Of a DNA stretch of 64,000 bases, positions 1 to 41,707 are shown piece by piece (the stretch's first letter is position 1; every line of letters starts with the position of its first letter). The stretch lies in the NCBI GenBank assembly GCA_958296025.1, contig OY282430.1, forward strand, positions 620,001-684,000. The letters are read 5' to 3'. Source of the stretch: an uncultured Pseudomonadales bacterium (GTDB taxonomy: Bacteria; Pseudomonadota; Gammaproteobacteria; Pseudomonadales; Azotimanducaceae). Position numbers and translations under genes: made by a program. The notes under the pieces are model-generated. The model worked only from the letters and a program-made list of their open reading frames with translations, was not told the DNA's origin and did no database searches.

Positions 1-116
1 TCCGCCCGGTGCCCGCGCGCGATGAGCGCCTGCGCCAGGTTCAGCGTGGCGCGCTCCGCCCCGCCGCCGTTCAGGCCGGTCAGCAGGAAGCCGACATGGA
101 GTCCGCCGTCGGCCAC
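1..116 (-). CDS. Glycosyltransferase (GT4-like), N-terminal part only
   Basis: The reverse strand from a GTG at 116-114 reads a 38-residue N-terminus that runs off the left edge. It contains VGFLLTGLNGGGAERATLNL followed by AQALIARGHR. This hydrophobic strand, then GGAER, then an amphipathic helix ending RGH, is the usual start of family-4 (group 1) glycosyltransferases acting on nucleotide sugars at the cytoplasmic membrane. The start lies one codon after the stop of the upstream ligase-like gene and in the same frame, so the two are translationally coupled in one operon. The acceptor and sugar cannot be inferred from this fragment. Confidence 0.65.
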   Translation of the reverse strand, partial: MADGGLHVGFLLTGLNGGGAERATLNLAQALIARGHRA

Positions 117-119
117 CGG

Positions 120-3100
120 TCACGCCTCCGCGACCTGTCGGTCATCCTCGTGGTGCGCCGTCCCTATCGCGACGCTCAACCCGGCGAGAAACATGACCGT
201 GCCTATGCCGAGCAGGTGCTGGAAGGTCGTGCCGTACAGGGCGATGACGATGACCCAGGCCACGGTCGCATCCCGGGCAAGCGACTTGGGTGCGCCCCAC
301 TGCGCGCGCAGCAGCAGGACAATGGCGGACACGAATAGCAGCAGAGGAACGATGCCCGCCTCGCCCAGCAAGGTCAGGTACAGATTGTGAGGGCCCAGGG
401 GCTTGCCGTAATGTCCGATGGGAGCGCCGTCCATGGATGCCAACGCCTGATAGCCGTGACCGGAGACGGGCGCCTTCATGGCCTTCTCGAAGCCCAGTCT
501 CCAGAGCACCGATCTGTCCATCGTCAAGGTAGCGCAGATGAGGCCGCCATCGATGTCGTGGCTGCGCAGACGTTGCATCTCCCATGGCATGCAGCCGTGG
601 AAGTCGTTGCCGGCGACGGCCAGGGAGAGACGCGGGATTCCGTCCAGTTCGGGCGGAATGGAACCGATGAGACGGTTGTCGGCCAGCCACAGTGGCCCGA
701 GGTTCGACAGATTGGCGAACTCGGGTGGGATGGGGCCGGTCAGGCGATTGCCGTCGAGCGACAGCATGGACAGACGGGTCAGGTTCCCCAGTTCCGGTGG
801 AATGGAGCCGGTGAGTCGGTTGCGGTCGAGCCGCAGCACATAGAGATGGTTCAGTTCGCTCAGTTCCGGGGGAATCCGCCCCGTCAGGTTCATGTCCCGC
901 AAGTCCAGGGCGACGATGCGACCGTTGCGCCCGGTGAACACGCCCTGCCAAGACGAGACGGGCCGAGCATAGCTCCAGTTCAGCACCGCGTCGCCGGCCA
1001 GGATGTCGCGCAGGCGCATCAGACGCGCGCCGTCCTCGAACAGGTCCGGTTTGGCCCAGGGCGGCGATTCGCAGAGCAGATCGGCGGAATCCAGATCGTT
1101 GTGCCGTGTCCGCGCCGTACGCGACGCGGCCGGGATGCAGTCGGAGAATGCGTTGCCGCCCAGACGGAGGACCGCAAGACGAGCCAGCCAGTCCAGTTCC
1201 TCCGGGAATCCTCCGTATAGACGATTGTTCTCGAGCCGCAGCTCTTCCAAGCGCCACAGGTCGCCGATCTCCGGATGGATTTTGCCTAGCAGGCCGGTGT
1301 TCTCCAGCGCGAGTACGCGCAGGTTGGTCAAGGCGGTGAAATGCCCCATAGTACCGGTGAGTTCGTTGTTCCCAAGACGCAGCGAAACGAGTTTCTGCAA
1401 TGCGCTCAACTCCCACGGGATCGCGCCGGTGAGCGCATTGTTCTCCAGGTTCAGGGTCCGCAAACCGGACAGATCGCCCAGTTCCGGCGGAATGGATCCC
1501 ACAAGCCGGTTGTGGCCGAGCCGCAGCACGGCAAGGGCTTCCAGAGCCGATAGCCCAGAGGGAATTCGCCCGTTCAAGCCCGTATGCGACAGATCTAGGG
1601 CGATCACGCGAAACCCTTCCGCGGCCTCGCCGGCGATGGCGGGAAGGCCGACGGTGACGCCCCGCCAATAGCTGATGGGGACCGCGTCGCTCCAGTTCAG
1701 TTCGACATCGCCGGCCAGTGCGTCCCGAACGTCCAGCAACGTGGCGCAGTCGTCGTTCAGGCGCGACGGTGCTTCGAGGAGGGGTTGACAGAGCAGGTTC
1801 CGGTCGAGAACCCCGCTGCGACCGCGATCCTGCGTCGGCGTTTCGCCAGCCGCGTCGTCATCATCCAGGCGCAACACGACCAGCTCAGGTAGCATGGCCA
1901 CCGAGGGAGATGCGGAGCCGATCACACGGTTCCCGTGCAGCCACAGGTCGGTGAGCCGCGACAGCTTGCCCAGTTCCGGCGGTACGGAACCGACCAGGAG
2001 ATTGCCGTCCAATGCCAGCAGGCGCAGATCGACCAGGTTGCCGAGCTCGGACGGGATGCCGCCGGTAAGCCGGTTGCGGCCTAGGTGCAACGAGACGAGG
2101 CCGGCAAGCTGCCCCAACTCCGCGGGGATGCGTCCGTTCAACCCCATTTGCGTCAGCTCCAGCGCCGTCACGCGGCCCCGCGCACGGTCCATGACGACGC
2201 CCAGCCAGTCATCGACGGGCACCTCCTCGCGCCAGTTGAGCGGCGCATCTCCCGCGAGGGCGTCCTTCACCCTCAGCAACAGGGCGCAATCGGCGAGCAG
2301 GCCCGGATCGATTTTCCTCGGCCGGCAGAAAACCGGCGTGTCGAGATCATGGTCGACAACCTCGTGGAGCGCCGGCGGAAAGGGCCGATTCAGGTCGTTG
2401 CCGGCGAGGCGCAGGAAACGGAGATTGCCCCGTCCTTCCAGTTCTGGAGGTACCGGGCCGGTGAGCCGATTGCCTTCCAGGCGCAACGAGACGAGGTGTT
2501 CCAGTCCACCCAGCCCCGGCGGAATGGGCCCGGCGAGCCCGTTGTGACTCAGGTTCAGCGCGACGAGGCCGCCCAGTTCTCCCAACTCCGCGAACAGGCG
2601 CCCGTTCAATCCCGTGCGCGGCAGTTCTAGCGCGGTCACACGCTTTGGCGCACCGCCGACCGTGACGCCCTGCCAGAACTCGATGGGGATGTCCACGCTC
2701 CAGTTGAGCGGCGCGTCGCCGGCCAGGACGTCCCTGCTCGCCAGCAGAAGGGCGCAGTCGGCTTGCAGATCGGAAGCGGTGCTGGAGGATGGGCTACAGA
2801 ACAGGCGCCTGACCGCACCAAGACGATCCCGGTTCGTGCGGTCCGCTGCCTCTGCCGTTTCTGCGTCGCCGAGGGGCCGACGACGGTGCGCCTCGTCGAG
2901 AGCAAAGTCGCTGGCGGGGATCACGCTTTCGGCGATTCCGAAGAGAAGCGGCGGGTAGGGGGGGGCCAGATCGTTGCTGGAGATGCGCAGGAGGGTCAGC
3001 TGCTCCAGCCCTTGAAGTTCCGGTGGCACAGGGCCGCTCAGGCGGTTGTGCTTTAGCCACAACTCCCTGAGCTGCGACAGTTTCCCCAGTTCCGGCGGAA

Positions 3101-6100
3101 TCGGGCCGCTCAAGGCGTTGAAGGAGAGCACTAGGCGCTCCAGGTTGGTCAACTCCCCCAGTTCGGGAGGCACCGGGCCGGTGAGCCGGTTGCGGTTTAG
3201 GGCAAGCGACACGAGTTCGCTCAATCGTCCCAGTGCCGGCGGGATGCGCCCGTTCAGACCTGAACTTGCAAGTTCGAGCCTCGTCACGCGGTCCGGCGAG
3301 CCGCCAATGGTGACGCCCCGCCACAACTCGATGGGGAGCTGCTCGCTCCAGTTGAGCCGCGCTTCACCGGCGAGGATGTCCCTCGTTGCCAGCAGGACAT
3401 CGCAATCGGCGCGCAAACCGGGATTGTCGGCAGGAGCGGTGGGGCAGAGCGTTTCCGCGTCGGCGACCGAACGCAGTTCGGGGGAGAGGGGACCGGTCAG
3501 GCGGTTGTGCTTTAGCCACAACTCCCTGAGCTGCGACAGTTTTCCCAGTTCCGGCGGAATCGGGCCGCTCAAGGCGTTGGAGGAGAGCCCCAAGCGTTCC
3601 AGGTTGGTCAACTCCCCCAGTTCGGGAGGCACCGGGCCGGTGAGCCGGTTGCGGCTTAGATCAAGCGACACGAGTTGGCTCAATCGTCCCAGTGCCGGCG
3701 GGATGCGCCCGTTCAGACCTGAACTTGCAAGTTCGAGCCTCGTCACGCGGTCCGACGAGCCGCCGATGGTGACGCCCCGCCACAACTCGATGGGGAGCTG
3801 CTCGCTCCAGTTGAGCCGCATGTCGCCGGCGAGGATGTCCCTGCTCGCTAGCAGGAGCGCACAATCGGCGCGCAAACCGGGATTGAGGGCAGAAGCGGCG
3901 GGGCAGGGCGCTTCCCCACCAGCGACCGAATGCCGTTCGGGGGGAAGGGAACCGGTGAGATGGTTGCCGCTCAGCCAGAGTTCCCTCAAGCTCGACAGCT
4001 TCGCCAGTTCCGGTGGGATGGGGCCGGTCAGGGCGTTGGCGGCCAGCCCGAGTATTTCCAGGTCGGTCAGTTTCCCCAGCTCGGGCGGAATGGCGCCAGT
4101 CAACAGGTTGCCGTCGAGCACTAGGGACTGCAAGCCGGCGAGATGCCCCAACGCTGCGGGAACGCGCCCATTCAGCTCCATTCTGGGCAGCTCCAGCGCA
4201 ATGACACGACCTTCCGGACCGCCCAGGGTCACGCCCTGCCATTCGCTGATCCGCAAGGTCGCGCTCCAGTTGAGTTCCGCCTCGCCAGCCAGCGTCTCCT
4301 TTACCGCCAAGAGCACAGTGCAGTCGTTGAACAACGGCGGACTGAGATCCGATGCCGACGTACAAAACAGGAGATGACCGAGATCCTGTGCGAGGATCTC
4401 GAGCAGCTCTGGTGGAATGGCGCCGCTCAAGCGGTTCCCTCTCAGCCACAAGGACTCGAGCCGACTGAGTTGTCCCAGTTCTGCGGGGACGGTGCCGGTC
4501 AGGGCGTTGCGGTCCAGACTCAATTCACGCAAATTGACGAGGCGCCCCAACTCGGGCGGAATAGGCCCGGTGAGACGATTGACGGCCAGGTTCAAGTTGA
4601 CGAGGCCATCCAGTTTGCCGAGCTCCGGGGGAATGCGCCCAGTCAGCCCCTTCGACATAGCGAGCCCGGTCACGCGTATCGGCGAACCGCCTAAGGTCAC
4701 GCCCTGCCATTCGGTGATCGGGTGTGCCAGGCTCCAGTTGAGTTGGACCTCGCCAGCGAGTGTCTCCTTTACCGCCAGGAGCACAGTGCAGTCGTCGAAC
4801 AACGGCGGACTGAGACGCGGTGGCGGCGCACAAAACAGGAGATGACCGAGATCCTGTGTGGGGATCTCGAGCAGCTCTGGTGGAATGGCGCCGCTCAAGC
4901 GGTTCCCTCTCAGCCACAAGGACTCGAGCCGGCCGAGTTGTCCCAGTTCTGCGGGGACGGTGCCGGTCAGAGCGTTGCGGTCCAGACTCAATTCACGCAA
5001 AGCGACGAGGTGCCCCAACTCGGACGGGACAGGACCGGTGAGACGATTGGCGGCCAAGTTCAAGTTGACGAGGCCATCCAGCCTGCCGAGTTCCGGGGGA
5101 ATGCGTCCGTTCAGCCCTTTCCTGTGCAGGACGAGCTCGGTCACACGTCCCCGGTGACCACCCACGGTCACGCCTTGCCACAAGCCGACAGGGAGCTCCG
5201 CATGCCAGTTGAGCGACGCGTCGCCGGCCAGCGTTTCCTTCATCGCCAGCAGCACCGTGCAGTCGTCGAACAGCGCCGGGCTCGTTGGCGGGAGGGGCAG
5301 GCAGAGCCGCGCATCGGCCAAGTCGTGGTCGGCGACGTCGGTGAGTGCGGGAGGAACGGAGTCGAAATCGCTGCCCGAGAGACGCAGGACGGACAGGTCG
5401 AGATCTCCGAGAGCGGCCGGGACAGCGCCGGTCAAGCGGTTCTCTCTCAGCAACAGACGCTCGAGGTTCTCGAGCTTCGCCAACTCCGGCGGGATGCCCC
5501 CTGTCAAGTCGTTGTAGCTCAGGTTCAAACGCTCGAGACTCGCCAGATCGCCCAACTCGGGCGGAATGGGGCCCGTGAGCCGATTTCGTCGAAGGGACAG
5601 CGAAACCAGGCGATCCAGGCGGCCGAGATCCGAGGGGATGCGGCCGTTCAATCCCAGTTCCGCCAGATCCAGCCCGGTGACGCGCCCCTCCGGGCCTTCC
5701 GTCGTCACGCCCTGCCAGAGGTCCATGGGCGTGGTGCTGCTCCAGTTCAAGGCAACGTCCCCGGCCAGGATGTCCCTCGTCGCCAGCAGGACGGCGCAGT
5801 CCGCGCCTAGATCCTCGGTCGGCGAAGGGTCGCAGAACAGGTGCTCCTCTTGCGCAACGTCGGGAGTGGACCGCAACCTCAACCACTCGGAAAAACCTCC
5901 GGAGAAGCCCACGACGCCGGCGAATCCCGCAATTCCGACCAGTCCAGTGGCGGCCCAAGCAAGGAGGAAGGACCTCGGTTTGCTGCGGACGTTGATCAAC
6001 AGGAACACGACCGCCAGCGCGCCGAGCACGACCAGCGTCGTTCGGGACGCCGTCGCCAGGCTTGCGGCGGTGCCGGCGGCCAAGCCCAGCCAGCCGAGCG

Positions 6101-6764
6101 TGCGCGGCCCGCCGTTGGTCAGCAACGCCCCGGCCAACGCCACCGTCATGCAGGCGGCCAGGCTGGCGTCGTTGGGATCAAAGAAAGCGCCGTTCAGGCG
6201 AAACGGAATGCTGAAGGGCCGCAGGATGCCCAGATCGCGCAGGGCCGGCGAAGCGAGAATGACGGCGCAGCTCGCAATCAGCACGACAAGCACGCCCTTC
6301 AACAACCGCTCGGCCCCGGTTCGTTCCAGCATCGCACGGCCGCCGGCCGCGGCCGCCGCGAGCATGCCGAGAAGGAGGACGTGGTACTTCCATAGCCCGG
6401 CCGTTTCGGGTTCCCAGATCGCTTCGTCGTCCAGCACCAAGGCGCCGATCGCCAGATAGGACGCCACCGCGCCGAACAGCAACATGCCGGGCGTTCCGCC
6501 AAGCGCCCTGCGGATGGGGGCGAGTGAACCGGACTTCCTCCAGGCGATCGCGCACCGGGCTCCGACCAAGCCCAACAGGAGGACGCAGCAGGCCATCGTG
6601 GCCCATGCAATGACCGCCTCAACCTGTGGCGTCCCTCCAAGATGCACGTACCTCAGGTTGATTAGAGCGATGACTGCCAATGTCCAGAACGCGACTGCGA
6701 TCAGGGTGGTCTGGAGCGACTCGCTTCGGTGCCGCAGCGAGGCCGGATGTCGGAACAGGATCAT
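120..6764 (-). CDS. Giant O-antigen ligase/polymerase-like membrane protein with ten inserted LRR modules
   Basis: This 2214-residue protein has two halves of a Wzy_C/WaaL-type membrane fold. Residues about 1-295 hold eight or nine hydrophobic segments and the conserved TASRTTLVVLGALAV helix. Residues about 2076-2214 hold the family's loop signature (SVLWRLGFEKAM, SGHGYQAL), then PHNLYLTLLGEAGI and the last membrane segments. Between them, residues about 305-2075 are leucine-rich repeats of the plant-specific type (LTGPIPPELG). They form ten modules, each opening with a cap resembling plant LRRNT_2 (DCAVLLATRDILAGD, LNWS, WQGVT, GRVT.L.L). WaaL/Wzy family members normally have 400-600 residues and join or polymerise undecaprenyl-linked glycans on the periplasmic face. 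The insertion point is the large periplasmic loop before the R..LW motif, so the LRRs should be periplasmic. The start ATG has an AGGAG placed unusually close. Ligase, polymerase or another Wzy_C role cannot be told apart. Confidence 0.85.
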   Translation of the reverse strand: MILFRHPASLRHRSESLQTTLIAVAFWTLAVIALINLRYVHLGGTPQVEAVIAWATMACCVLLLGLVGARCAIAWRKSGSLAPIRRALGGTPGMLLFGAVASYLAIGALVLDDEAIWEPETAGLWKYHVLLLGMLAAAAAGGRAMLERTGAERLLKGVLVVLIASCAVILASPALRDLGILRPFSIPFRLNGAFFDPNDASLAACMTVALAGALLTNGGPRTLGWLGLAAGTAASLATASRTTLVVLGALAVVFLLINVRSKPRSFLLAWAATGLVGIAGFAGVVGFSGGFSEWLRLRSTPDVAQEEHLFCDPSPTEDLGADCAVLLATRDILAGDVALNWSSTTPMDLWQGVTTEGPEGRVTGLDLAELGLNGRIPSDLGRLDRLVSLSLRRNRLTGPIPPELGDLASLERLNLSYNDLTGGIPPELAKLENLERLLLRENRLTGAVPAALGDLDLSVLRLSGSDFDSVPPALTDVADHDLADARLCLPLPPTSPALFDDCTVLLAMKETLAGDASLNWHAELPVGLWQGVTVGGHRGRVTELVLHRKGLNGRIPPELGRLDGLVNLNLAANRLTGPVPSELGHLVALRELSLDRNALTGTVPAELGQLGRLESLWLRGNRLSGAIPPELLEIPTQDLGHLLFCAPPPRLSPPLFDDCTVLLAVKETLAGEVQLNWSLAHPITEWQGVTLGGSPIRVTGLAMSKGLTGRIPPELGKLDGLVNLNLAVNRLTGPIPPELGRLVNLRELSLDRNALTGTVPAELGQLSRLESLWLRGNRLSGAIPPELLEILAQDLGHLLFCTSASDLSPPLFNDCTVLLAVKETLAGEAELNWSATLRISEWQGVTLGGPEGRVIALELPRMELNGRVPAALGHLAGLQSLVLDGNLLTGAIPPELGKLTDLEILGLAANALTGPIPPELAKLSSLRELWLSGNHLTGSLPPERHSVAGGEAPCPAASALNPGLRADCALLLASRDILAGDMRLNWSEQLPIELWRGVTIGGSSDRVTRLELASSGLNGRIPPALGRLSQLVSLDLSRNRLTGPVPPELGELTNLERLGLSSNALSGPIPPELGKLSQLRELWLKHNRLTGPLSPELRSVADAETLCPTAPADNPGLRADCDVLLATRDILAGEARLNWSEQLPIELWRGVTIGGSPDRVTRLELASSGLNGRIPPALGRLSELVSLALNRNRLTGPVPPELGELTNLERLVLSFNALSGPIPPELGKLSQLRELWLKHNRLSGPVPPELQGLEQLTLLRISSNDLAPPYPPLLFGIAESVIPASDFALDEAHRRRPLGDAETAEAADRTNRDRLGAVRRLFCSPSSSTASDLQADCALLLASRDVLAGDAPLNWSVDIPIEFWQGVTVGGAPKRVTALELPRTGLNGRLFAELGELGGLVALNLSHNGLAGPIPPGLGGLEHLVSLRLEGNRLTGPVPPELEGRGNLRFLRLAGNDLNRPFPPALHEVVDHDLDTPVFCRPRKIDPGLLADCALLLRVKDALAGDAPLNWREEVPVDDWLGVVMDRARGRVTALELTQMGLNGRIPAELGQLAGLVSLHLGRNRLTGGIPSELGNLVDLRLLALDGNLLVGSVPPELGKLSRLTDLWLHGNRVIGSASPSVAMLPELVVLRLDDDDAAGETPTQDRGRSGVLDRNLLCQPLLEAPSRLNDDCATLLDVRDALAGDVELNWSDAVPISYWRGVTVGLPAIAGEAAEGFRVIALDLSHTGLNGRIPSGLSALEALAVLRLGHNRLVGSIPPELGDLSGLRTLNLENNALTGAIPWELSALQKLVSLRLGNNELTGTMGHFTALTNLRVLALENTGLLGKIHPEIGDLWRLEELRLENNRLYGGFPEELDWLARLAVLRLGGNAFSDCIPAASRTARTRHNDLDSADLLCESPPWAKPDLFEDGARLMRLRDILAGDAVLNWSYARPVSSWQGVFTGRNGRIVALDLRDMNLTGRIPPELSELNHLYVLRLDRNRLTGSIPPELGNLTRLSMLSLDGNRLTGPIPPEFANLSNLGPLWLADNRLIGSIPPELDGIPRLSLAVAGNDFHGCMPWEMQRLRSHDIDGGLICATLTMDRSVLWRLGFEKAMKAPVSGHGYQALASMDGAPIGHYGKPLGPHNLYLTLLGEAGIVPLLLFVSAIVLLLRAQWGAPKSLARDATVAWVIVIALYGTTFQHLLGIGTVMFLAGLSVAIGTAHHEDDRQVAEA
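3041..3886. repeat. Recent internal duplication: adjacent LRR modules 5 and 6
   Basis: The stretches 3041-3427 and 3500-3886 are nearly identical at nucleotide level with an offset of 459 bases (153 codons). Both contain the run GGCGGTTGTGCTTTAGCCAC and the same order of cap and LRR codons. The similarity is higher than between other modules, which indicates a recent duplication or gene conversion. Confidence 0.8.
4264..4999. repeat. Recent internal duplication: adjacent LRR modules 3 and 4
   Basis: The stretches 4264-4531 and 4732-4999 are nearly identical with an offset of 468 bases (156 codons). Both contain AACAACGGCGGACTGAGA and ACAAAACAGGAGATGACCGA. This second pair shows that module-level duplication happened more than once in this gene. 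Confidence 0.8.
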
Positions 6765-6829: not shown

Positions 6830-7921
6830 CTACGGCCGCTCGCGTTGTTCGTGCCGCTGACGGAGTGGGGCGCCCATCCGCTCCGCTTGGGATTGCAACT
6901 GTTCGCTGATAACGCTCATTACCCGCACCGTTTCGAGGCCGTCTTCGGAGGTGACGGCTGGGGGCAGGCCGGCGACGCTTCGTTTGAAGAACTCGCTGAT
7001 GGTCCTGTCGTGGATGTTCCTGAATCGGCCGGCGAGATAATCGAAGCCATTGGCGAAGGCGCCTGAGGCCAATTGCGCAGCCTCGCCAATAGCAGAAAGA
7101 CCGATTCCCCAAGGGGACTGGTTCACCCTGCGGTAGTTAACGAGCACCTTGCTTTGCATATCGATCTTCATTATGCCTTCAGTGCCCCACAACTCCAATA
7201 GAAAGGCCGAATGTTTGCTGGTGTACGTCAGCACAACGCTGCTGGAGACATGATCGCCCACAAGCTCCAATCTATAGTCCTCGAATGGCGACCAAGGGTA
7301 TTCCGGCAAGATTTTTCGGCCCTGGACACGGACGTCGCGGATAGGACCGATGAATGCCTGGGAGAGGTACGCCGCGTGGGGCCCTGTCTCTCCTATTGAC
7401 CCGCCGGGCAGCCGGTTGGCGAAGTGGTCGGGGTCCGTCGTCCACAGAGCGACCGGCGTGGAGTAGAAAATGCGCATCCCGGTGAGGTCCCCGATGTCGC
7501 CGCGCTTGATGCGCTTGCGAGCCTCGATGACCCGCGGGTGGAACAGCTCGGTATGGGCCACCCCGACACGGCCCTTGGACCTCCGCTCGGCCTCGATGAT
7601 CCTTCCACAGTCCCCGACCGTCGTAGCCAAAGGCTTCTCAATCAGTGCATTGGAGTCCACTTTCAGCGCCGCCACCACTATGTCGGCATGGGTGCTCGGC
7701 GGCGTGCATACGTCAACGAAGTCGGGACGCTCCATGGCCAGCATTTGCTCGACGTCATCGTAAGCCGCCGGAACTCCGAATTGGCGGCTCACGGCATCGG
7801 CGCGGGCGCGGTCGAGATCGCAGATGGCGACGACTCTCAGGCCGCGACGCAACCGGCACCAGGCCGGCAGGTGCTTCTTGGCTGCTATGAACCCGGCTCC
7901 TATGATGGCGACTGTGTGCAT
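6830..7921 (-). CDS. Gfo/Idh/MocA family oxidoreductase
   Basis: A 363-residue NAD(P)-dependent sugar oxidoreductase. The N-terminal Rossmann motif is AIIGAGFIAAKKH (residues 5-17). The acidic strand end CDLD follows at about 34-37, and the family's EKP motif lies at 95-97 (LIEKPLAT). The C-terminal part has the usual alpha/beta substrate domain, with H-rich TGPHAAYLSQ about where the catalytic histidine helix is expected. Such enzymes oxidise or epimerise sugars and nucleotide sugars. The gene lies 65 bases upstream of the ligase-like gene on the same strand, so a role in making or altering a surface-glycan sugar is likely. The substrate cannot be read from the sequence. Confidence 0.85.
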   Translation of the reverse strand: MHTVAIIGAGFIAAKKHLPAWCRLRRGLRVVAICDLDRARADAVSRQFGVPAAYDDVEQMLAMERPDFVDVCTPPSTHADIVVAALKVDSNALIEKPLATTVGDCGRIIEAERRSKGRVGVAHTELFHPRVIEARKRIKRGDIGDLTGMRIFYSTPVALWTTDPDHFANRLPGGSIGETGPHAAYLSQAFIGPIRDVRVQGRKILPEYPWSPFEDYRLELVGDHVSSSVVLTYTSKHSAFLLELWGTEGIMKIDMQSKVLVNYRRVNQSPWGIGLSAIGEAAQLASGAFANGFDYLAGRFRNIHDRTISEFFKRSVAGLPPAVTSEDGLETVRVMSVISEQLQSQAERMGAPLRQRHEQRERP

Positions 7922-8373: not shown

Positions 8374-9246
8374 ATGGCGCCCCGCGTGGATATGAGAGTG
8401 TTGAAAAGGCTGGTCCGCAATATCCTTCCGGCGCGGGCGCATGGCGCACTCCGCCGGGTGGTCCATACCCAGCGGCTCAACCGGCTGCCTGTGATGGCGG
8501 TGGACGTTGCCCCGCTTCCCAAGGCGGCGGAGATTTCGCTCTCGGATATGCTCCGGGGCGACGGCATGTTCGACAGCTGGGAACAGGCGCAAACCTCGAT
8601 AAAAGAAATCTTCGAATACATGCCCTGGACTCACGCCACCGATCCCCAAAGCTGCCGGGCAATCTACCACCTGATTCGCCGTTTTCAACCGCGCTCCCTT
8701 CTGGAAATCGGCACCAACCGCGGCGCATCCACCTTATGCGCCGCCATGGCAATGCGGGAGTACCGGAATGTAGGCCGCTCGCCCCGTCTGGTCACCGTGG
8801 ACTTGTTTGACGTCAACGATCCTGCCGCCGCAGAGGCGAAACGATACCGCATCTCCACTCCCCCCCGGGAACTGCTGGCCTGTCTGGACTGTGCCGACAT
8901 GGTGGAATTTTCCATCGCCCGGTCCACGGACTATCTGAACGGGCGCGAAGCGGAGTTCGATTTCATCCTCCTGGACCACGCCCCTGCCGCGGACATTGCC
9001 TACCGGGACATCGTGCTGGCCATCAGGGCGCTGCGCCCGGGCGGACAACTGTTGATTCATTCCTACTTTCCGGGCAGGAAACCCTTGGGGACGGATGAGC
9101 GCGTCAACTCCGACTCCTACCTCGCCCTACGCCGTCTGCGCCAGGAAGGCGCCCGCTTGGTCGCCTTGCCCTTGGGCCCGCTGCCCTGGCCGGCGAAGCC
9201 CGGCGAGCCGAACCTCACCAGTCTGGCCCTCTTGGCGAGGGAATGA
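8374..9246 (+). CDS. SAM-dependent methyltransferase (class I, Methyltransf_24-like)
   Basis: A 290-residue class I methyltransferase. The SAM-binding motif I is EIGTNRGAST (111-120). It is followed by a VTVDLFDV strand, a FDFILLDHAP motif and the GGQLLIHSY strand. The LEIG.N.G and LLDHAP signatures resemble methyltransferases encoded in polysaccharide clusters. The start is uncertain: ATG 8374 and ATG 8392 (MRVLKRLV) are both possible and neither has a strong ribosome site. It lies among glycan genes, so an O-methyltransferase acting on a sugar or a small carboxylate is plausible, but the substrate is unknown. Confidence 0.7.
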   Translation: MAPRVDMRVLKRLVRNILPARAHGALRRVVHTQRLNRLPVMAVDVAPLPKAAEISLSDMLRGDGMFDSWEQAQTSIKEIFEYMPWTHATDPQSCRAIYHLIRRFQPRSLLEIGTNRGASTLCAAMAMREYRNVGRSPRLVTVDLFDVNDPAAAEAKRYRISTPPRELLACLDCADMVEFSIARSTDYLNGREAEFDFILLDHAPAADIAYRDIVLAIRALRPGGQLLIHSYFPGRKPLGTDERVNSDSYLALRRLRQEGARLVALPLGPLPWPAKPGEPNLTSLALLARE

Positions 9247-14049: not shown

Positions 14050-16416
14050 CTATATCCTTATCATCGTAACCACTCCGGTGAAGGCCGTTTCCGACTTGGT
14101 CCACACACCGTCGCTGGTTTCGTAGTACACATAGGCCCGCAGGTACTTGAGCAGGTCAGCGGGCATCGGCGTGTAGCTCAGGGTAGCGGAGGTCGAGATA
14201 TACTGGCAGTCGGTATGGGGGGTGACAGTGTTGTCGCAGCGCTGCCAGCCCCAACGCTCGTCGACCGCCCCGGCCGGCAGTTGGCCGGCGGTTAGTCTAA
14301 CAGGGGTGCCCACTCGGGGCATGGCGTTGCCGTCGGCGAAGTTCAGCGCGGCCCCGTCGGTTGCGGCGTCGGCGGCGCGCACCTTGCCGAAAACCCGGGT
14401 GTACATTTCGCTGCCGTCGATCAGGAAGACCTTGGCCCGGAAGTATTTGCCCACTTCGGCATTGTTGGGGATGTACAAGTAGGTGGGGCTGCCGCCGGCC
14501 CGGTTTGCGCCCCGGGTCGCAACGACACTGGTCCAGTTGGAGTGCCCGTCGTCGGAACGCTCCCAAGCCCAGCCTTTGCTGCCCTCCCGCAGGGTCTGGC
14601 TGCTGAGGTAGACCCAGTCGGAACGCTCCCAGGCCCGGGCTTCGCTGGTGCCCCGCAGGGTCCCGCTGCTGAAATGGACCCAGATGGGTTCGCCCGCCAC
14701 CGGGAAGTTGCCGTGGTCGGTTTTGCCCCTGGCTTGGCTGCCCTGGACTATCGGATCCTGGCTGCCGTACTTCAGTTTGGGGTACTGGAGGGGCGTTCCG
14801 AAATCCCAGGGGTCATCGCCGCCGGTCGTACCGTCGAGATCCAGGTTCCAGTTGGCGTAGATGCCGGAGTAGCCGCTGGGCCGTTGCAGTTGTCGGGTGG
14901 TCTTGCCCTCCGGGGCAACGGTATTTGCGTCGTCGTCAATGCCGGTGGTTCCGGCGTCCCAATAGCTGTCGGCAATGCTGGTGTAGCTTTTCCCAACTTG
15001 ATCAGAGGGGGGTTCCATAGGGTCGTCGTCCCCCACCAGGCCGCCGATTTGGGCGCCGCTTTCCCCGGTTACCGGGCCGGTGGCGTAACTGGCGGAGATA
15101 TTCGTGTTGGTAATTCCATAAATCCCCGGTGCTCCCTCGACCCCCGTCCCTTCGAAACGAGTGTGACTGCCAGTGTTGAAGCCCACCAGTCCCCCTAAAT
15201 CGTTGTTGGCGCCGGCGCCATGCACCGCGCCGGTAGCGTAGCTGGCCCGGATGTTGGCGGTGGCCCGGTTGCCTCTGTGTCCATCGTTCTGCAGATGGGC
15301 GTCGTTTTCCCCAACCAGCCCCCCCGCCTTGGCGGTGGCGGTGGCGCCGGTGGCGGTAACGCTGACCCGACCGGTGGCGTAGCTGGCAGTCAGGTTGCTG
15401 GTTACCTGTACCGGGAGTCCGCCGCCATCAGCGGATGCCCTGAACCAACCCACCAGTCCGCCGGCTTTGGCACCGCCGCCGCTGGCGGTGACGGCGCCGG
15501 TGGCGTAGCTTTCGGATATGTTTCCGGAGGCAACTCGTCCCACCAGTCCGCCCGCATTGGTCGTTCCGCTGACGTCGCCAGTGGCGTAACTGGAGGACAC
15601 ACTGGCGTTTACGCTGTTGCCGCCCAGCAGCAGCGCCGTGAGGCCGCCGGCCTCGCCGCCTTGAGCGGTAACGGTGGCGGTGGAATGACTGCCGCTTATC
15701 GTTCCGCTTGTCCCCCCGACGGCATTGAGCTGCCCCACCAATCCCCCGGCCCGGTCGCCGCTTACCGTTACGCTGCCGCTGGAATCACAGTTGCTGATGG
15801 TTCCCTCGTCCGCGTGACCGACCAGTGCGCCCGCCCGTCCCTCGGCGGTTATCCGCACATTGGACAAGCTGATGTCACGGAGGGTGGCGCCGGTGGTCCG
15901 TCCGAACAGCCCCGTCCGGTTTGACCCGGTTCCAGAGGCGCGGCTGATGAACAGATGGGAAATGGTGTGTTCGTTGCCGTCGAAGGTGGCGGTGAATCGG
16001 GTGGCATTGTTGCCCAGGGGCTCCCAGCCCAACCCGCCGTTGTAGTAGTGGTCGCCCGAGTCGCTGCCGTCGCCGTCACCGTTGGCGTCGAAGCTCAAAG
16101 CCGCCTTCAGTTCGTAGCCGGTGCAGGTTCCCGAGGGGCAGCCCATCCGCCCGCCGCTGGTGGTGTCCCGGCTGGGAAAGGCGGCCACATAGTCGGCGTG
16201 GGTGGCGTCGCCGTTGCCGTTCAGGTCGTGGCGGACGGCGTTCAACTGCGCTAGGGTGGTTACGTCGATGAGGCCGTTGTCCTCCGAGTCATAATCGGTA
16301 GGCGTCTGGGCGGCCGCCGTTCCGGGCCCGGCCAGCAGGGCCACCACCGCCAGCGTGGTCAATCTTGCGGCGCGGGGCTTGCCCTGCCGTAATCGGAGAG
16401 GGGGGATTGTCCGCAT
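14050..16416 (-). CDS. Secreted GLUG-repeat surface protein
   Basis: A 788-residue exported protein. Residues about 1-36 form a signal peptide ending PGTAAAQ. A segment with EF-hand-like Asp/Asn/Gly runs (DANGDGDGSDSGD) follows. From about residue 160 to 480 there are repeated GLUG-type units of the form GGLVG, SYATG, VT, which build beta-solenoids in surface adhesins. The C-terminal 200 residues contain modules with repeated AWERSD and a W..C core that look like bacterial Ig-like domains. There is no LPXTG, autotransporter barrel or clear sorting domain, so the anchoring route is unknown. Adhesion is inferred from the family. Confidence 0.75.
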   Translation of the reverse strand: MRTIPPLRLRQGKPRAARLTTLAVVALLAGPGTAAAQTPTDYDSEDNGLIDVTTLAQLNAVRHDLNGNGDATHADYVAAFPSRDTTSGGRMGCPSGTCTGYELKAALSFDANGDGDGSDSGDHYYNGGLGWEPLGNNATRFTATFDGNEHTISHLFISRASGTGSNRTGLFGRTTGATLRDISLSNVRITAEGRAGALVGHADEGTISNCDSSGSVTVSGDRAGGLVGQLNAVGGTSGTISGSHSTATVTAQGGEAGGLTALLLGGNSVNASVSSSYATGDVSGTTNAGGLVGRVASGNISESYATGAVTASGGGAKAGGLVGWFRASADGGGLPVQVTSNLTASYATGRVSVTATGATATAKAGGLVGENDAHLQNDGHRGNRATANIRASYATGAVHGAGANNDLGGLVGFNTGSHTRFEGTGVEGAPGIYGITNTNISASYATGPVTGESGAQIGGLVGDDDPMEPPSDQVGKSYTSIADSYWDAGTTGIDDDANTVAPEGKTTRQLQRPSGYSGIYANWNLDLDGTTGGDDPWDFGTPLQYPKLKYGSQDPIVQGSQARGKTDHGNFPVAGEPIWVHFSSGTLRGTSEARAWERSDWVYLSSQTLREGSKGWAWERSDDGHSNWTSVVATRGANRAGGSPTYLYIPNNAEVGKYFRAKVFLIDGSEMYTRVFGKVRAADAATDGAALNFADGNAMPRVGTPVRLTAGQLPAGAVDERWGWQRCDNTVTPHTDCQYISTSATLSYTPMPADLLKYLRAYVYYETSDGVWTKSETAFTGVVTMIRI

Positions 16417-32507: not shown

Positions 32508-34256
32508 TTGCGCATGCCCATGCCGCCCCTTCGCAACATTCCCGTCGCAAGCGCCGCGGCGGCCCATGCCCGGCGCAAGGCATCCCATGCCGTCAAACCG
32601 CCCCGGCGTCAGCTGTCGGCAAAGCAACGGCGGCGGCGCAGAAGGGCGGCGGCGGGACAGGCCATCCTGGTCGTGCTTTGCGCGGTTGCGGCGGCGTTGG
32701 CGAATGGGGCGCAACGGCCCAACGTCATCGTCATGGTGGCGGATGACTTGGGTTGGGCGGACGTCGGCTTCCGCGGTGGCGACATCGACACGCCCTCCTT
32801 GGACCGGCTGGCCGCGGAGGGGGTGGAGCTGCACCGCTTTTATACGACGCCGATATGCTCGCCGACCAGGGCGGCCTTGATGACCGGGCGCAATCCCATT
32901 CGCCTGGGCATTGCCTACGGCGTCATCCTGCCTTGGGACAACATCGGCGTGCATCCGGACGAGCGCTTCCTTTCCGAAGCCTTTTTGGACTTGGGCTACC
33001 AAACCGCCATGGTCGGCAAGTGGCACTTGGGCCATGCGCAGCAGACCTACCACCCAAACAACCGCGGCTTCGAGCACTTCTATGGGCACCTGCACACGGA
33101 GGTGGGTTACTACCCGCCGTTCGCCAACCAAGGCGGCAAGGATTTTCAACGCAACGGCGCCTCCATTGACGACGAGGGCTACGAAACCTTCCTGCTCGCC
33201 GACGAGGCGGTGCGCTACATCCGACGGCGGGACAAGGAAAGGCCCTTCTTCCTCTACTTACCGTTTCTGGCGCCGCACACGCCGTTGGACGCCCCGCAGG
33301 CGCTGCAGGACAAGTACGCGGACATCGACACCGACTTGCCCCCGGCCCGCAGTTCGCAAACGGACGGCACCCGCACCATCGCCAAGCTGCTGCTGCGGGA
33401 CAGTGCCCGGCCCATGTACGCGGCGGTGGTGGATGGGATGGATCAGGCCATCGGCCGGGTGTTGCAAGCCCTCGACGACGAGGGCATCAGCGACGACACC
33501 TTGGTGCTCTTCTTCAGCGACAACGGCGGCGCCGCCTACTCCTACGGCGGCGCCAACAACGCCCCGTTGCGTGGCGGCAAGGGGGAGGCGTTCGAGGGGG
33601 GCATCCGAGTGGTGTCCTTGCTGCGCTGGCCGGCGCAACTTGAGGGCGGCGGCAGGATGGAGCAGATCATGACGGTGATGGACGTCTTCCCCACCCTCAT
33701 GGAGGCCGTCGGCGGGACGCCGGGCGAACACCTGCCTTGGGACGGCGCAAGCCTGTGGCCGTCCATCCGCGACGGCAAGCCCGCGCCCCGCGATGAGGAT
33801 GTGTTCTTCGCCTCGGAAACGCCGATCTACGGCCACTTCAACCTGACGGTGTTCAATGAGGAATGGAAACTGGTGCAGGAGATCCAGCAGGACCAAGTGA
33901 CCGCCACGGTCACCAACCACCTCTTTAGGATTTCCGAAGATCCCCATGAATACAACAACTTGGCCGCCATCCACGGGGATTTGGTTGCGGACATGGCGCA
34001 GCGCATCCGTAACTGGCGGGCGCTCTATCCCATCCACGGCACCCGCTCGCACTTAGTGGGACCGCCCGGTTGGCGGGCGCCCAAGGACTGGGCGACCTAC
34101 CCCCGTCCGCTGGCGACCCTGCAGGACGTCCCAGCGCCCGGCATGCCGCCCCCCGGCGTCGAGAAGATCCTCGACCTGCAGCACGGCGAGCGTGGGCGGC
34201 TGATCTACAACTGTGAATCCAAGTGGTATTTGGGTGGGCTGTGCCTGCAGGACTAG
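32508..34256 (+). CDS. Arylsulfatase (type I, formylglycine), copy 1
   Basis: A 582-residue type I sulfatase. The formylglycine motif is CSPTRAALMTGR with Cys117 as the residue to be matured. Metal-binding Asp79-Asp80 lies in VADDLGWADVGF, and KWHLGH and FFSDNGGA are further active-site parts. The N-terminus has about 50 basic residues (RRRRRR) before a hydrophobic export signal, which is unusually long; other starts are possible. It is paralogous to the sulfatase at 40100-41707 along its whole length, including the C-terminal GWRAPKDWA motif. It hydrolyses sulfate esters, probably in the periplasm. No sulfatase-maturing enzyme is encoded in this window. Confidence 0.9.
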   Translation: MRMPMPPLRNIPVASAAAAHARRKASHAVKPPRRQLSAKQRRRRRRAAAGQAILVVLCAVAAALANGAQRPNVIVMVADDLGWADVGFRGGDIDTPSLDRLAAEGVELHRFYTTPICSPTRAALMTGRNPIRLGIAYGVILPWDNIGVHPDERFLSEAFLDLGYQTAMVGKWHLGHAQQTYHPNNRGFEHFYGHLHTEVGYYPPFANQGGKDFQRNGASIDDEGYETFLLADEAVRYIRRRDKERPFFLYLPFLAPHTPLDAPQALQDKYADIDTDLPPARSSQTDGTRTIAKLLLRDSARPMYAAVVDGMDQAIGRVLQALDDEGISDDTLVLFFSDNGGAAYSYGGANNAPLRGGKGEAFEGGIRVVSLLRWPAQLEGGGRMEQIMTVMDVFPTLMEAVGGTPGEHLPWDGASLWPSIRDGKPAPRDEDVFFASETPIYGHFNLTVFNEEWKLVQEIQQDQVTATVTNHLFRISEDPHEYNNLAAIHGDLVADMAQRIRNWRALYPIHGTRSHLVGPPGWRAPKDWATYPRPLATLQDVPAPGMPPPGVEKILDLQHGERGRLIYNCESKWYLGGLCLQD

Positions 34257-38681: not shown

Positions 38682-40103
38682 ATGCGCAATTGGTGGAAGG
38701 GGTTGGCGGTTCTGCTCGCCGGCGCGACAGGCGGCTACTTCATGGCCGGCACGGACCTTGGCCGCGTACTCGAGGAGCGCCAGGCCGAAGCCTTGGGTTC
38801 ACTGGCCAGCCGCTACGTCGCCGAGCAAGTGCGCCCGCAGTTGGACGCAAGCGCCGCGGTGAAGACCGTGGCCGGCCTCAACCTCATCGAGGTGGAGGTG
38901 GACAGGTTCCAAGGCAACATCCTTCGCGCCACGGGCGTGGCCAACACCTACCTCGTGCAGACCCCGGCGGGGAACCTGCTGTTCGACACGGGCTTAAGCA
39001 CCCAAGCGGCGCAGCACAAGCGGCTGTTGCAAAAGGCGGCGCCTGGGCCGGTGACCCACATCGTGCTTTCCCACTCCCATGCGGACCACATCGGCGGGGC
39101 CAAGTTTTGGCGGGCCGAATTCCCGAATGCGCAGATCATCGCCCACGCCAAGTTCCGGGCCGGGCAGCAATACTTGAAGGCGCTGCAACCCCACTTCTGG
39201 TCGCGCAACCGCCTGCTGTATCCCTTCATGCCGGAAGAACCGCCGGAGAGCGGCTTTGCCGCTTACGGCGGGTTGACGCCGGATGTGGAGGTGGCCGACG
39301 GAACGGTGCATCGCTTCATCTTGGGCGGCGTCGCGTTCGAGGCGCTGCCGGCGCCGGGCGCCGAGGGGGAGGACAACCTAGTGCTCTGGCTGCCGCAGCA
39401 GAGGGCCTTGTTTTCCGGGGATTTTTTCGGGCCGCTGTTTCCCATGCTGCCCAATCTGTTCACCCTGCGCGGGGAGAAGTTCCGTGACCCCGTCGCTTAC
39501 GTCGCCTCTCTGGACCGGCTCATCGCCCTGCGCCCGCAAATGGTTTTGCCCAGCCACTTCGACCCGGTGGTTGGCGAGGAAAGGCTGGTCGCCGACATGC
39601 AGGCGATGCGCGACGCTACGGCCTACGTCCACGACCAAACCGTCGCCGGGATGAACGCCGGCAAGTCCCTTTGGGCGTTGATGCGGGAGATCGAGCTGCC
39701 GCCGGAGTTGGCGCTCAGCCAAGGGCACGGCAAGCTGTCCTGGAACGTGCGCGGCATTTGGGAGCACTACAGCACTTGGTTCCATTTCGAGTCCACCACT
39801 GAGCTCTATCCCACCCAGGTGCGCGACCTCTACCCGGAATTGGCCACCCTCAGCGGCGGTGCCGGGCCGCTCATCGCCAAGGCCTGGCAACGCTTGGACC
39901 AAGGGCAGCCCGAGGCGGCCCTGCATTTCATCGAGATCGCCTTGGCCGGGGAACCGCAAAACGAGGCGGCCCTGCAAGCCCGTTTGGACGCCTTGCGGCA
40001 GCTATTGCAAAGGGCCGTCGCGGAGGGCGGCAACCACAGTGAAACCGGCTGGCTGAAGAGCCGCATCCAAGCCACCGAGCAAGCCTTGGGAGCTGAGGCT
40101 TGA
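38682..40103 (+). CDS. Alkylsulfatase-like metallo-beta-lactamase-fold hydrolase
   Basis: A 473-residue protein with an N-terminal membrane anchor or signal (WWKGLAVLLAGATGGYFMAG). The dinuclear zinc motif is HSHADHIGG (131-139), with further ligands in ALFSGDFFG and PSHFDPV. The C-terminal segment RGIWEHYSTWFHFESTTELYP matches the dimerisation domain of SdsA1/BDS1-type alkylsulfatases, and an Ala-rich sterol-carrier-like tail follows. Family members hydrolyse alkyl sulfate esters. It overlaps the second arylsulfatase by four bases. Confidence 0.8.
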   Translation: MRNWWKGLAVLLAGATGGYFMAGTDLGRVLEERQAEALGSLASRYVAEQVRPQLDASAAVKTVAGLNLIEVEVDRFQGNILRATGVANTYLVQTPAGNLLFDTGLSTQAAQHKRLLQKAAPGPVTHIVLSHSHADHIGGAKFWRAEFPNAQIIAHAKFRAGQQYLKALQPHFWSRNRLLYPFMPEEPPESGFAAYGGLTPDVEVADGTVHRFILGGVAFEALPAPGAEGEDNLVLWLPQQRALFSGDFFGPLFPMLPNLFTLRGEKFRDPVAYVASLDRLIALRPQMVLPSHFDPVVGEERLVADMQAMRDATAYVHDQTVAGMNAGKSLWALMREIELPPELALSQGHGKLSWNVRGIWEHYSTWFHFESTTELYPTQVRDLYPELATLSGGAGPLIAKAWQRLDQGQPEAALHFIEIALAGEPQNEAALQARLDALRQLLQRAVAEGGNHSETGWLKSRIQATEQALGAEA

Positions 40104-41707
40104 GGCACAGGAAACTAGGGCTTGCCGGCCTCTTCCTGCTGCCCTGCCTGGCTTGGGCAAGCGAACGGCCCAATGTGTTGCTCATCGTCGCCGATGATTT
40201 GGGCTGGGCGGACGTCGGCTTTCACGGCGGCCCCATCGACACGCCGGCCTTGGACCGCCTTGCTGCCGAAGGCGTGGAACTGCGTCGCTTCTACGCCACC
40301 CCCATTTGTTCCCCCAGCCGGGCGGCGCTGATGACTGGGCGCGACCCGATGCGCCTCGGCGTCGCCTACGCCACCATCATGCCTTGGTCGAACGTCGGCG
40401 TGCATCCGCAAGAGCGCTTCATGCCGCAAGCCTTCAAGGAGGCGGGCTATCAAACCGCCGTCATCGGCAAGTGGCATCTTGGCCATGCCCAGCAGACCTA
40501 CCATCCCAACGCCCGCGGCTTCGACCATTTCTACGGCCATCTGCACACCGAGGTGGGCTACTTCCCGCCCTTCGCCAGCCAAGGCGGCAAGGATTTTCAG
40601 CGCAACGGCCAAAGCGTTGACGAGGAGGGCTACGAAACCGATTTGCTGGCCGACGAGGCGGTGCGCTGGCTCCAGGCGCGGGATGCGGGCCGGCCCTTTT
40701 TCCTGTATCTGCCCTTCTTGGCCCCCCACACTCCCTTGCAGGCGCCGGACGCCCTCATCGAAAAGTACCGCGGCCTCGACGATGACAGCGAGAAATCCCG
40801 GTCGCGCAGCGACAGCACCCAACTGCTGGCTACCCTGACCTTTCAGGACAGCGCCCGCGGCCTGTACGCAGCGGTGGTCGATGCCATGGATCAGGCCATC
40901 GGCCGGGTGTTGGCCGCCTTGGAGGAAGCCGGCGTCGCCGACAACACCATCGTCTGGTTTTTGAGCGACAACGGCGGCGCCACCTACGCCACAGGCGGTG
41001 CCACCAATTACCCCTTGCGCGGCGGCAAGGGCAGCGCCTTTGAGGGCGGCATCCGGGTGCCGGCGGTCGTGCGTTGGCCGGACCGCTTGGCCTCCGGGCA
41101 ACAGCTGAGCAGCATCCTGACCGTCATGGACCTCTATCCCACGTTGGCCGCCATGGCCGGCGTCCCCGTCAACGGCGGCTTGCGCCTGGATGGCCGTGAT
41201 CTGTCCAAGGTGGTGGCTGGCGAGGCCGCGCAACGCTTGGATGAGTTTGTCTTCTTCACCGCCGAGACGCCCATACGGGGAAGATTCAGCCTGACCGCCT
41301 TTGATGAGGACTGGAAGTTGGTGCAGGAAATTCAGCAGGGCTTGCTGGCGGCACAGGTGACGAATCATCTGTTCAAGATTGCCGAAGACCCCTACGAGCG
41401 AAACAACTTGGCCGCCGAACACCCAGACCGCGTGGCCGACATGGCGGAGGCCATACGTCGCTGGCGGCTGCTGCATCCACTCAACGGCACCCGCTCCAAC
41501 TTGGTGCCGCCGCCGGGCTGGCGGGCGCCCAAGGACTGGGCCGCCTATCCCATTCCCATCGACGCCTTGCAGGATGCGGAAGCGCCGGGCATGCCGCCGC
41601 CGGGCGCCAAGCTGCCGCTGGACCTGATGCATGGCGAAAGCGGACGCTTGATTTACGACTGCACGCCCCGACCTTGGCTGTTCGGCGCTTGTTTGTCAAA
41701 CGACTGA
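40100..41707 (+). CDS. Arylsulfatase (type I, formylglycine), copy 2
   Basis: A 535-residue sulfatase with a short signal peptide (LAGLFLLPCLAWA). Asp32-Asp33 lie in VADDLGWADVGF, the maturation motif is CSPSR with Cys70, and KWHLGH and FLSDNGGA are present. It aligns with copy 1 from the metal site to the C-terminal GWRAPKDWA and GESGRLIYDC segments, but has a shorter N-terminus. The start is a TTG whose TTGA overlaps the stop of the upstream hydrolase, giving translational coupling. Serine-type (rather than threonine) CxPSR matches canonical type I sulfatases. Confidence 0.9.
   Translation: MRHRKLGLAGLFLLPCLAWASERPNVLLIVADDLGWADVGFHGGPIDTPALDRLAAEGVELRRFYATPICSPSRAALMTGRDPMRLGVAYATIMPWSNVGVHPQERFMPQAFKEAGYQTAVIGKWHLGHAQQTYHPNARGFDHFYGHLHTEVGYFPPFASQGGKDFQRNGQSVDEEGYETDLLADEAVRWLQARDAGRPFFLYLPFLAPHTPLQAPDALIEKYRGLDDDSEKSRSRSDSTQLLATLTFQDSARGLYAAVVDAMDQAIGRVLAALEEAGVADNTIVWFLSDNGGATYATGGATNYPLRGGKGSAFEGGIRVPAVVRWPDRLASGQQLSSILTVMDLYPTLAAMAGVPVNGGLRLDGRDLSKVVAGEAAQRLDEFVFFTAETPIRGRFSLTAFDEDWKLVQEIQQGLLAAQVTNHLFKIAEDPYERNNLAAEHPDRVADMAEAIRRWRLLHPLNGTRSNLVPPPGWRAPKDWAAYPIPIDALQDAEAPGMPPPGAKLPLDLMHGESGRLIYDCTPRPWLFGACLSND

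Follow-up and report, generated by a model that had tools for sequence, protein, structure and literature searches.

A plant-type leucine-rich repeat array in the loop of a Wzy_C-type membrane enzyme, with close homologues in several bacterial phyla

The DNA analyzed here (the window) is a stretch of 64,000 nucleotides from an uncultured Pseudomonadales bacterium, corresponding to positions 620001-684000 of contig OY282430.1 in assembly GCA_958296025.1, a single-contig genome of 3.9 Mb (label G000). One of its genes, designated copy A, encodes a Wzy_C membrane enzyme that carries an array of leucine-rich repeats (LRRs) in its loop. Wzy_C enzymes are compact membrane proteins with the active site in a loop. 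A first-pass annotation of the window had proposed that a single frame joins such an enzyme to about 1770 residues of plant-type LRR, and the frame was found as described, with an insert of exactly 1770 amino acids. The parts of the gene are as follows.

120..6764, minus strand: LRR-Wzy_C gene (copy A), 2214 amino acids, ATG start, frame without internal stop
5841..6764, minus strand: N-terminal membrane half, residues 1-308, with Wzy_C positions 3-69 near its end (profile search)
531..5840, minus strand: LRR array, residues 309-2078, ten capped modules (Pfam and module comparison)
123..530, minus strand: C-terminal half, residues 2079-2214, with the catalytic-loop motifs, the last membrane helices and Wzy_C positions 80-149
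387..515, minus strand: R2084 (R..LW), GHG and H2126 (PHNLYL), with the candidate diphosphate-binding Arg and acceptor-activating His

Both components were recognized by hidden Markov model (HMM) searches. In copy A, the Pfam models LRR_8 (225.5 bits over 15 stretches) and LRR_1 (271.8 bits) give scores whose size is far beyond chance, and Wzy_C is found as two separate pieces, which a six-frame search places at window 5874-6083 (model positions 3-69) and window 330-527 (positions 80-149). For the natural frame the Wzy_C score is 31.9 bits in the six-frame search (cut-off 31.7) and 26.0 bits when the whole protein is scored with hmmscan, low values that would be expected if the domain is split. 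When the two halves were joined in silico without the LRR, a single match to Wzy_C (PF04932) was obtained that spans positions 3-149 of 149 (60.4 bits, E 2.3e-16), so that by score the joined halves belong to this family. Because joining converts two weak pieces into one match, the insert lies inside the Wzy_C domain, in the loop ahead of R..LW, GHG and PHNLYL. The placement of the array within the loop of one Wzy_C enzyme, as the first-pass annotation had it, is upheld by this join, by two adjoining paralogs and by homologues in nine other chromosomes; the HMM check and the search for further genomes with LRR between the Wzy_C halves, both of which it had suggested, thus gave positive results. 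Six hydrophobic segments were counted in the N-terminal half with a simple hydropathy script, and nine long helices are seen there in an AlphaFold2 model of a short homologue, which is of low confidence in that part.

Motifs were counted in 26 family proteins, of which 21 contain LRR and five do not (copy A included). G[HQN]G and HN.YL are present in all 26 and R..LW in 25; SRT of the N-terminal half occurs in every LRR protein and in none of the five others. Four sequences were kept outside the 21 LRR proteins: L096 (another contig of the assembly that contains L095, with the same frame), L088 (the N half of a gene that is complete in L082), a split copy in G226 and a short remnant at 323173 in G225. 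PMC10920833 describes an O-antigen ligase in which two Arg residues bind the diphosphate and a His may activate the acceptor. A conserved loop Arg and His are likewise present in copy A, and R2084 and H2126 may play these parts by analogy with 7TPG, drawn without a residue-by-residue alignment. Among NCBIfam models, only TIGR03097 (PEP_O_lig_1) and NF058641 (TfpM) were matched by the joined halves at E up to 0.1. The scores place the joined halves outside both families; O-glycosylation ligases are the nearest NCBIfam models, at scores far below their cut-offs.

The array consists of ten modules that start at residues 309, 488, 645, 801, 954, 1107, 1323, 1479, 1659 and 1898, with spacings of 179, 157, 156, 153, 153, 216, 156, 180, 239 and 151 amino acids (the last to the array end). 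The repeats are plant-type, with the 24-residue L..L.L..N.L.G.IP unit and an N-terminal cap. Of the cap that had been annotated on each module, the full form, C-x(10-12)-DC followed by LL..(R/K)(D/E).LAG...LNW...W.G, stands in nine of the ten, and the tenth lacks the second Cys. The Cys pairs that open nine modules fit an array located outside the cytoplasm. Pairwise identity among the modules ranges from 43% to 86%; modules 2 and 3 (78% identical) and modules 5 and 6 (86%) look like duplications. Searches of NCBIfam with the whole protein also returned the LRR effectors XopAE (247.5 bits, cut-off 600), XopAC and XopL, a fibronectin-binding family and internalin A; these assignments were rejected, as all of the matches are below cut-off and concern the LRR part only.

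Insert sizes in the 21 LRR proteins are 330-362 amino acids (nine proteins), 542 (one), 1556-1594 (eight) and 1746-1770 (three). Nine or ten modules were recognized in the long homologues, and fewer where the cap pattern was missed; note that counts for proteins in which the module finder overlooked caps (for example L082a, L082b and L084) are lower bounds. Modules were compared for 14 of the 20 other LRR proteins. In eight long homologues, modules 1, 4, 7, 8, 9 and 10, where separately recognized, have as their best match the window module of the same order, with identities of 64-92%, and other positions reach at most 64%. Modules 2/3 and 5/6 cross-match because they are apparently duplicated. 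Judged by these identities, module order is shown to be largely conserved across phyla. Five of the nine short copies were compared and both modules were recognized in four of them; in each of these the first is of the module-1 type, and in three the last is of the module-10 type. For copy B, one of the paralogs in the window's genome, the last module is nearest window module 2. Free expansion by slippage was considered for the array and is unlikely for most modules, since they match by position across phyla; modules 2/3 and 5/6 are the exceptions.

Nonsynonymous (dN) and synonymous (dS) divergence were compared between the window gene and six proteins over 54 segments. dN is below dS in 53 segments and exceeds it only for module 1 against L089. 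Module 7 has the lowest dN/dS in five of the six comparisons, one of them nearly tied, and in the comparison with Vicinamibacterales module 6 is lower.

Within the window's family, some Wzy_C match was obtained in 126 of 206 genomes. Twelve chosen genomes were re-scanned, and frames were read in 18 stretches and in 11 others; fragmented genomes were covered in part. Among the matches listed, LRR-Wzy proteins occur in six of seven single-contig genomes (G000, G005, G209, G210, G225 and G226; not G208), and the array is inserted at either of two points. In type A, to which the window gene belongs, it stands ahead of R..LW. In type G (twice in G005, and in G209 and G210) it follows the R..L[FW]...G[HEN]G stretch; these frames are 1767 to 3443 amino acids long, and the Wzy_C matches before the array end at positions 104-113. 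The last modules of copy A and of the four type-G proteins share the signature PW.KP.[LW].[ED]D.A.LM. When whole modules are compared, window module 10 is the nearest for only two of the four type-G last modules, and other modules of type G resemble window modules at 34-58% identity in no order. A common origin of the two kinds of array is therefore only possible, as whole-module identity pairs the modules inconsistently. The type-A N half was found in four of the 206 family genomes, all of them single-contig (in G005 only in LRR-free form), and in none of seven other members of the window's genus. A class-wide search for type G was negative in 369 genomes, but it is uninformative, as few candidates were scored and a positive control was lacking. 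In G226, one type-A gene is seemingly split, its N+LRR and C+LRR parts being separated by about 26 kb on one strand (L066 4384-7389 and L067 5412-8918); the part of the intervening DNA that was read (L080) holds genes that resemble, by eye, a type I restriction-modification set.

Five LRR-free relatives have a different small domain at the same loop place. By eye, this is an immunoglobulin-like (Ig-like) stretch of about 150-190 amino acids, seen in Dehalococcoidia proteins, in G005 (L050) and in G225 (L062). With LRR at two loop points and another small domain in relatives, the loop evidently accepts added domains. A further Wzy_C protein, found at L070 3370-5253 (G209) and L072 4863-6710 (G210), has a loop stretch that looks by eye like fibronectin type III, perhaps a third kind of insert.

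To find relatives outside the family, GTDB species contigs were scanned with the type-A N half, a procedure that finds relatives keeping one of two short motifs. Seventeen loci were obtained, 13 of type A at 63-81% identity and four from Dehalococcoidia (three assemblies) at 41-45%. Record titles assign the type-A loci to Vicinamibacterales, Pseudomonadales, Nitrospirales, Candidatus Entotheonella and Gammaproteobacteria. Twelve of these 13 carry LRR in the loop, and the remaining one (L088) ends within the N half. In all, type-A LRR-Wzy genes are known from ten chromosomes including that of the window, and the homologues in the nine others are 76-88% identical to the window gene in DNA. Values are 87.3% for the long copy of Vicinamibacterales (Acidobacteriota), 87.0% for the long copy of Nitrospirales and 85.6% for the short copy of Entotheonella. 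When rpoB stretches of the same genomes are compared with G000, the identities are 63.8%, 59.0% and 58.4%, and 16S rRNA, detected in five of 12 genomes, is 76.5% identical between the Entotheonella genome and G000. Identities of 86-87% for this gene against 58-64% for rpoB show that it was transferred between phyla. A tree of the membrane halves mixes phyla as well, with well-supported groupings of Entotheonella and copy C (0.97), of Vicinamibacterales and Pseudomonadales (0.99) and of Nitrospirales and Gammaproteobacteria (0.92). Support is weak at several of the other nodes, and L098 was excluded because its C half was not recognized by the pattern. Viral contigs scanned with an LRR-free alignment gave 86 pattern matches and no relative. 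OY282360, from the same accession series as these records, is labelled ‘Sponge metagenome’ in PMC12239599. We infer that all these records come from sponges; the near-identical gene has spread between phyla, probably among marine sponge symbionts.

For a two-module homologue, AlphaFold2 gave a confident LRR fold (predicted local distance difference test, pLDDT, mostly 70-92), and the membrane part of the two homologues modeled, both with shallow alignments, had a pLDDT of about 50. The top Foldseek matches of the two-module model are plant LRR receptor ectodomains, with E values down to 8.9e-17. Their TM-scores over the whole model are 0.15-0.19, low because the model is composed of two modules and a poor membrane part. 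The second model, in which the membrane part is of low confidence, gave no Foldseek match at E up to 0.001. In sequence searches of the PDB, the joined halves matched no solved structure at E up to 10, and the LRR-free relatives gave one match, at chance level.

Two paralogs, copies B and C (803 and 815 amino acids, inserts of about 360), lie within 9 kb of copy A, and three GT4 glycosyltransferase genes stand between the three LRR-Wzy copies. A 466-amino-acid flippase-like membrane protein adjoins copy C. Further neighbors are an epimerase, a carbamoyltransferase, two GDSL-like hydrolases (one under the Pfam cut-off), an oxidoreductase and a methyltransferase. In a profile scan of ten neighbor proteins, two besides the flippase-like one had no match. 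The surroundings read as a glycan cluster, of which the window contains the following genes.

1..101, minus strand: start of a GT4 glycosyltransferase that continues in the neighboring stretch (L008 18866 onward), end point inferred from DNA matches
6830..7921, minus strand: GFO/IDH/MocA oxidoreductase, possibly a sugar enzyme belonging to the cluster
8374..9246, plus strand: Methyltransf_24 methyltransferase, about 90% identical in DNA to stretches beside LRR-Wzy in L084 and L089

The flippase-like and GT4 genes (L008 9843-11279, 13793-15009, 17495-18788 and 18876-20000; window 1-101) are common to loci of other lineages. In several of these, GT4 genes and flippase-like and methyltransferase stretches are about 80-91% identical in DNA, and their order is changed. 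Other observations on these regions were made by eye. A secreted-looking repeat protein (window 14050-16416) has a C-terminal part like the Ig-like stretch of the LRR-free Wzy_C relatives. Two similar sulfatase-like genes lie near each other at window 32508-34256 and 40100-41707. A C-terminal stretch, GFDNLDF or similar followed by IRTGQ, recurs at L008 27-1658 and at L050 12300-14681 and 14539-17385, on different envelope proteins of these clusters.

We tentatively read copy A, with somewhat less than even confidence, as a working Wzy_C-type transferase whose LRR arm docks the acceptor for transfer of a lipid-linked glycan. An inner-membrane enzyme of the O-antigen ligase, O-oligosaccharyl ligase or polymerase class would take an undecaprenyl-diphosphate-linked glycan that is made with the help of the neighboring GT4 and flippase-like genes. 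The array would exit the membrane after the last N-half helix and return just before the catalytic Arg/His motifs, and from these exit and return points the arm would hang over the active site on the extracytoplasmic side. There it would dock an acceptor, which may be a protein or else a specific glycan or lipid core, and the enzyme would glycosylate the target so selected. Paralogs, which have two, three, nine or ten modules, would act on different acceptors. The gene, often found next to a GT4 gene, circulates between phyla by horizontal transfer, possibly to the benefit of a life with sponges. Support for this role comes from the single Wzy_C match obtained without LRR, the kept motifs, the Cys pairs, the GT4 and sugar-modifying neighbors, the loop that accepts domains, the module order across phyla, the low dN relative to dS and the O-glycosylation ligases as nearest NCBIfam models.

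Several observations weigh against this role. No ligand, acceptor or activity is known for LRR-Wzy_C, and an LRR homologue of 837 amino acids (L087) lacks the Arg of R..LW. The joined halves score 27.3 bits with PEP_O_lig_1 (cut-off 188.1) and 15.7 bits with TfpM (cut-off 600). For the flippase-like gene, Pfam gave no match and NCBIfam only TIGR02900, at 19.6 bits (cut-off 372.3). The membrane part gave no confident model. dN/dS is about 0.27 to 1.02, which is high for an enzyme. Finally, exposed positions on the concave LRR face vary at 0.30 and other exposed positions at 0.28 (11 protein pairs). Nothing therefore indicates a rapidly diversifying binding face, and a hypervariable concave face like that of variable lymphocyte receptors is not supported.

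Two other functions were weighed, and we regard both as unlikely. The enzyme could be a Wzy polymerase whose module array serves as a built-in ruler or processivity arm, setting chain length in place of Wzz. The insert sizes do fall into classes, and Wzz (PF02706) was found in one of seven genomes with LRR-Wzy, weakly (27.2 bits), as compared with 8 of 14 controls; no match was obtained in the four family genomes (G000, G005, G225 and G226), which do not show this mark of a Wzx/Wzy/Wzz system, and the single match is in one of three genomes of other phyla. Wza (PF02563) was found in none of the seven and in 4 of 14 controls, although both searches can overlook divergent proteins. The scarcity of Wzz and Wza would suit polymerases with their own length control and, equally well, ligases of unpolymerized units. 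Modules of unequal length that are mostly specific to their position fit dedicated binding sites better than a ruler. Slightly more doubtful still is the idea that the LRR acts at the surface or toward a host as an adhesin or decoy, with the membrane enzyme mainly as its anchor or as a secondary passenger. The sponge label of OY282360 and the plant receptor ectodomains as nearest folds speak for it, as do papers, among the literature matches listed, that pair LRR with eukaryotic-like proteins of sponge symbionts. Against it, the catalytic motifs have been retained, the array occupies the middle of a membrane enzyme's loop and is not placed at a free end, and the enzyme lies with GT4 genes.

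It seems improbable that the loop is permissive and simply tolerates the modules as neutral or selfish insertions. Such a process would suit the occurrence of LRR at two places in the loop, the other domain seen in relatives and the sporadic presence of the type-A N half in the family and genus, but in several genomes frames of 5-10 kb have stayed open, the order of modules is largely kept across phyla, and dN is below dS almost throughout. An assembly or binning artefact is hardly credible, despite the repetitive sequence and the metagenome assemblies: three copies stand in one single contig, the homologues in the nine other chromosomes are never identical to the window gene, and the compared genomes diverge in rpoB to the degree expected of other lineages. 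The mis-assembly that the first-pass annotation had named as its refutation is thereby made unlikely, because the paralogs and the other chromosomes share the layout.

A broader view is one that we consider possible at a little short of an even chance: these enzymes would be horizontally circulating glycan transferases with exchangeable extracytoplasmic recognition domains in the catalytic loop, which symbionts from several phyla living in a single type of host share, often along with a GT4 gene. The holobiont would thereby have a common system for acceptor-selective glycosylation of surfaces. A large receptor-like array in the loop, with its order largely kept across phyla, suggests that the choice of substrate or acceptor can be delegated to a plug-in domain. 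The passage of the gene between phyla together with parts of the glycan cluster gives a concrete starting point for asking how symbionts that are unrelated but live in one host might come to share surface features, and single LRR modules lend themselves to expression and ligand tests.

Among the literature matches listed, none describes LRR within Wzy_C enzymes or O-antigen ligases; most subscription papers were outside the search. LRR proteins are reported, among those matches, as eukaryotic-like proteins of sponge symbionts, whereas here the LRR is fused into a glycan transferase. Copy A resembles WaaL (CAZy GT121) and other Wzy_C enzymes in that the Wzy_C domain spans the join, a catalytic loop precedes the last helices, and the R..LW and His motifs are present; unlike them, it has 1770 amino acids of LRR in that loop, and its joined halves match no solved structure by sequence. 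PEP_O_lig_1, a putative O-glycosylation ligase, and TfpM, an O-linking oligosaccharyltransferase, are matched far under their cut-offs. With the plant LRR receptor ectodomains (ERL1, GSO1, MIK2 and FLS2) the array shares the plant-type repeat and a helical N-terminal cap, but copy A has no kinase, and its repeats are arranged as short, separately capped modules within a bacterial membrane enzyme.
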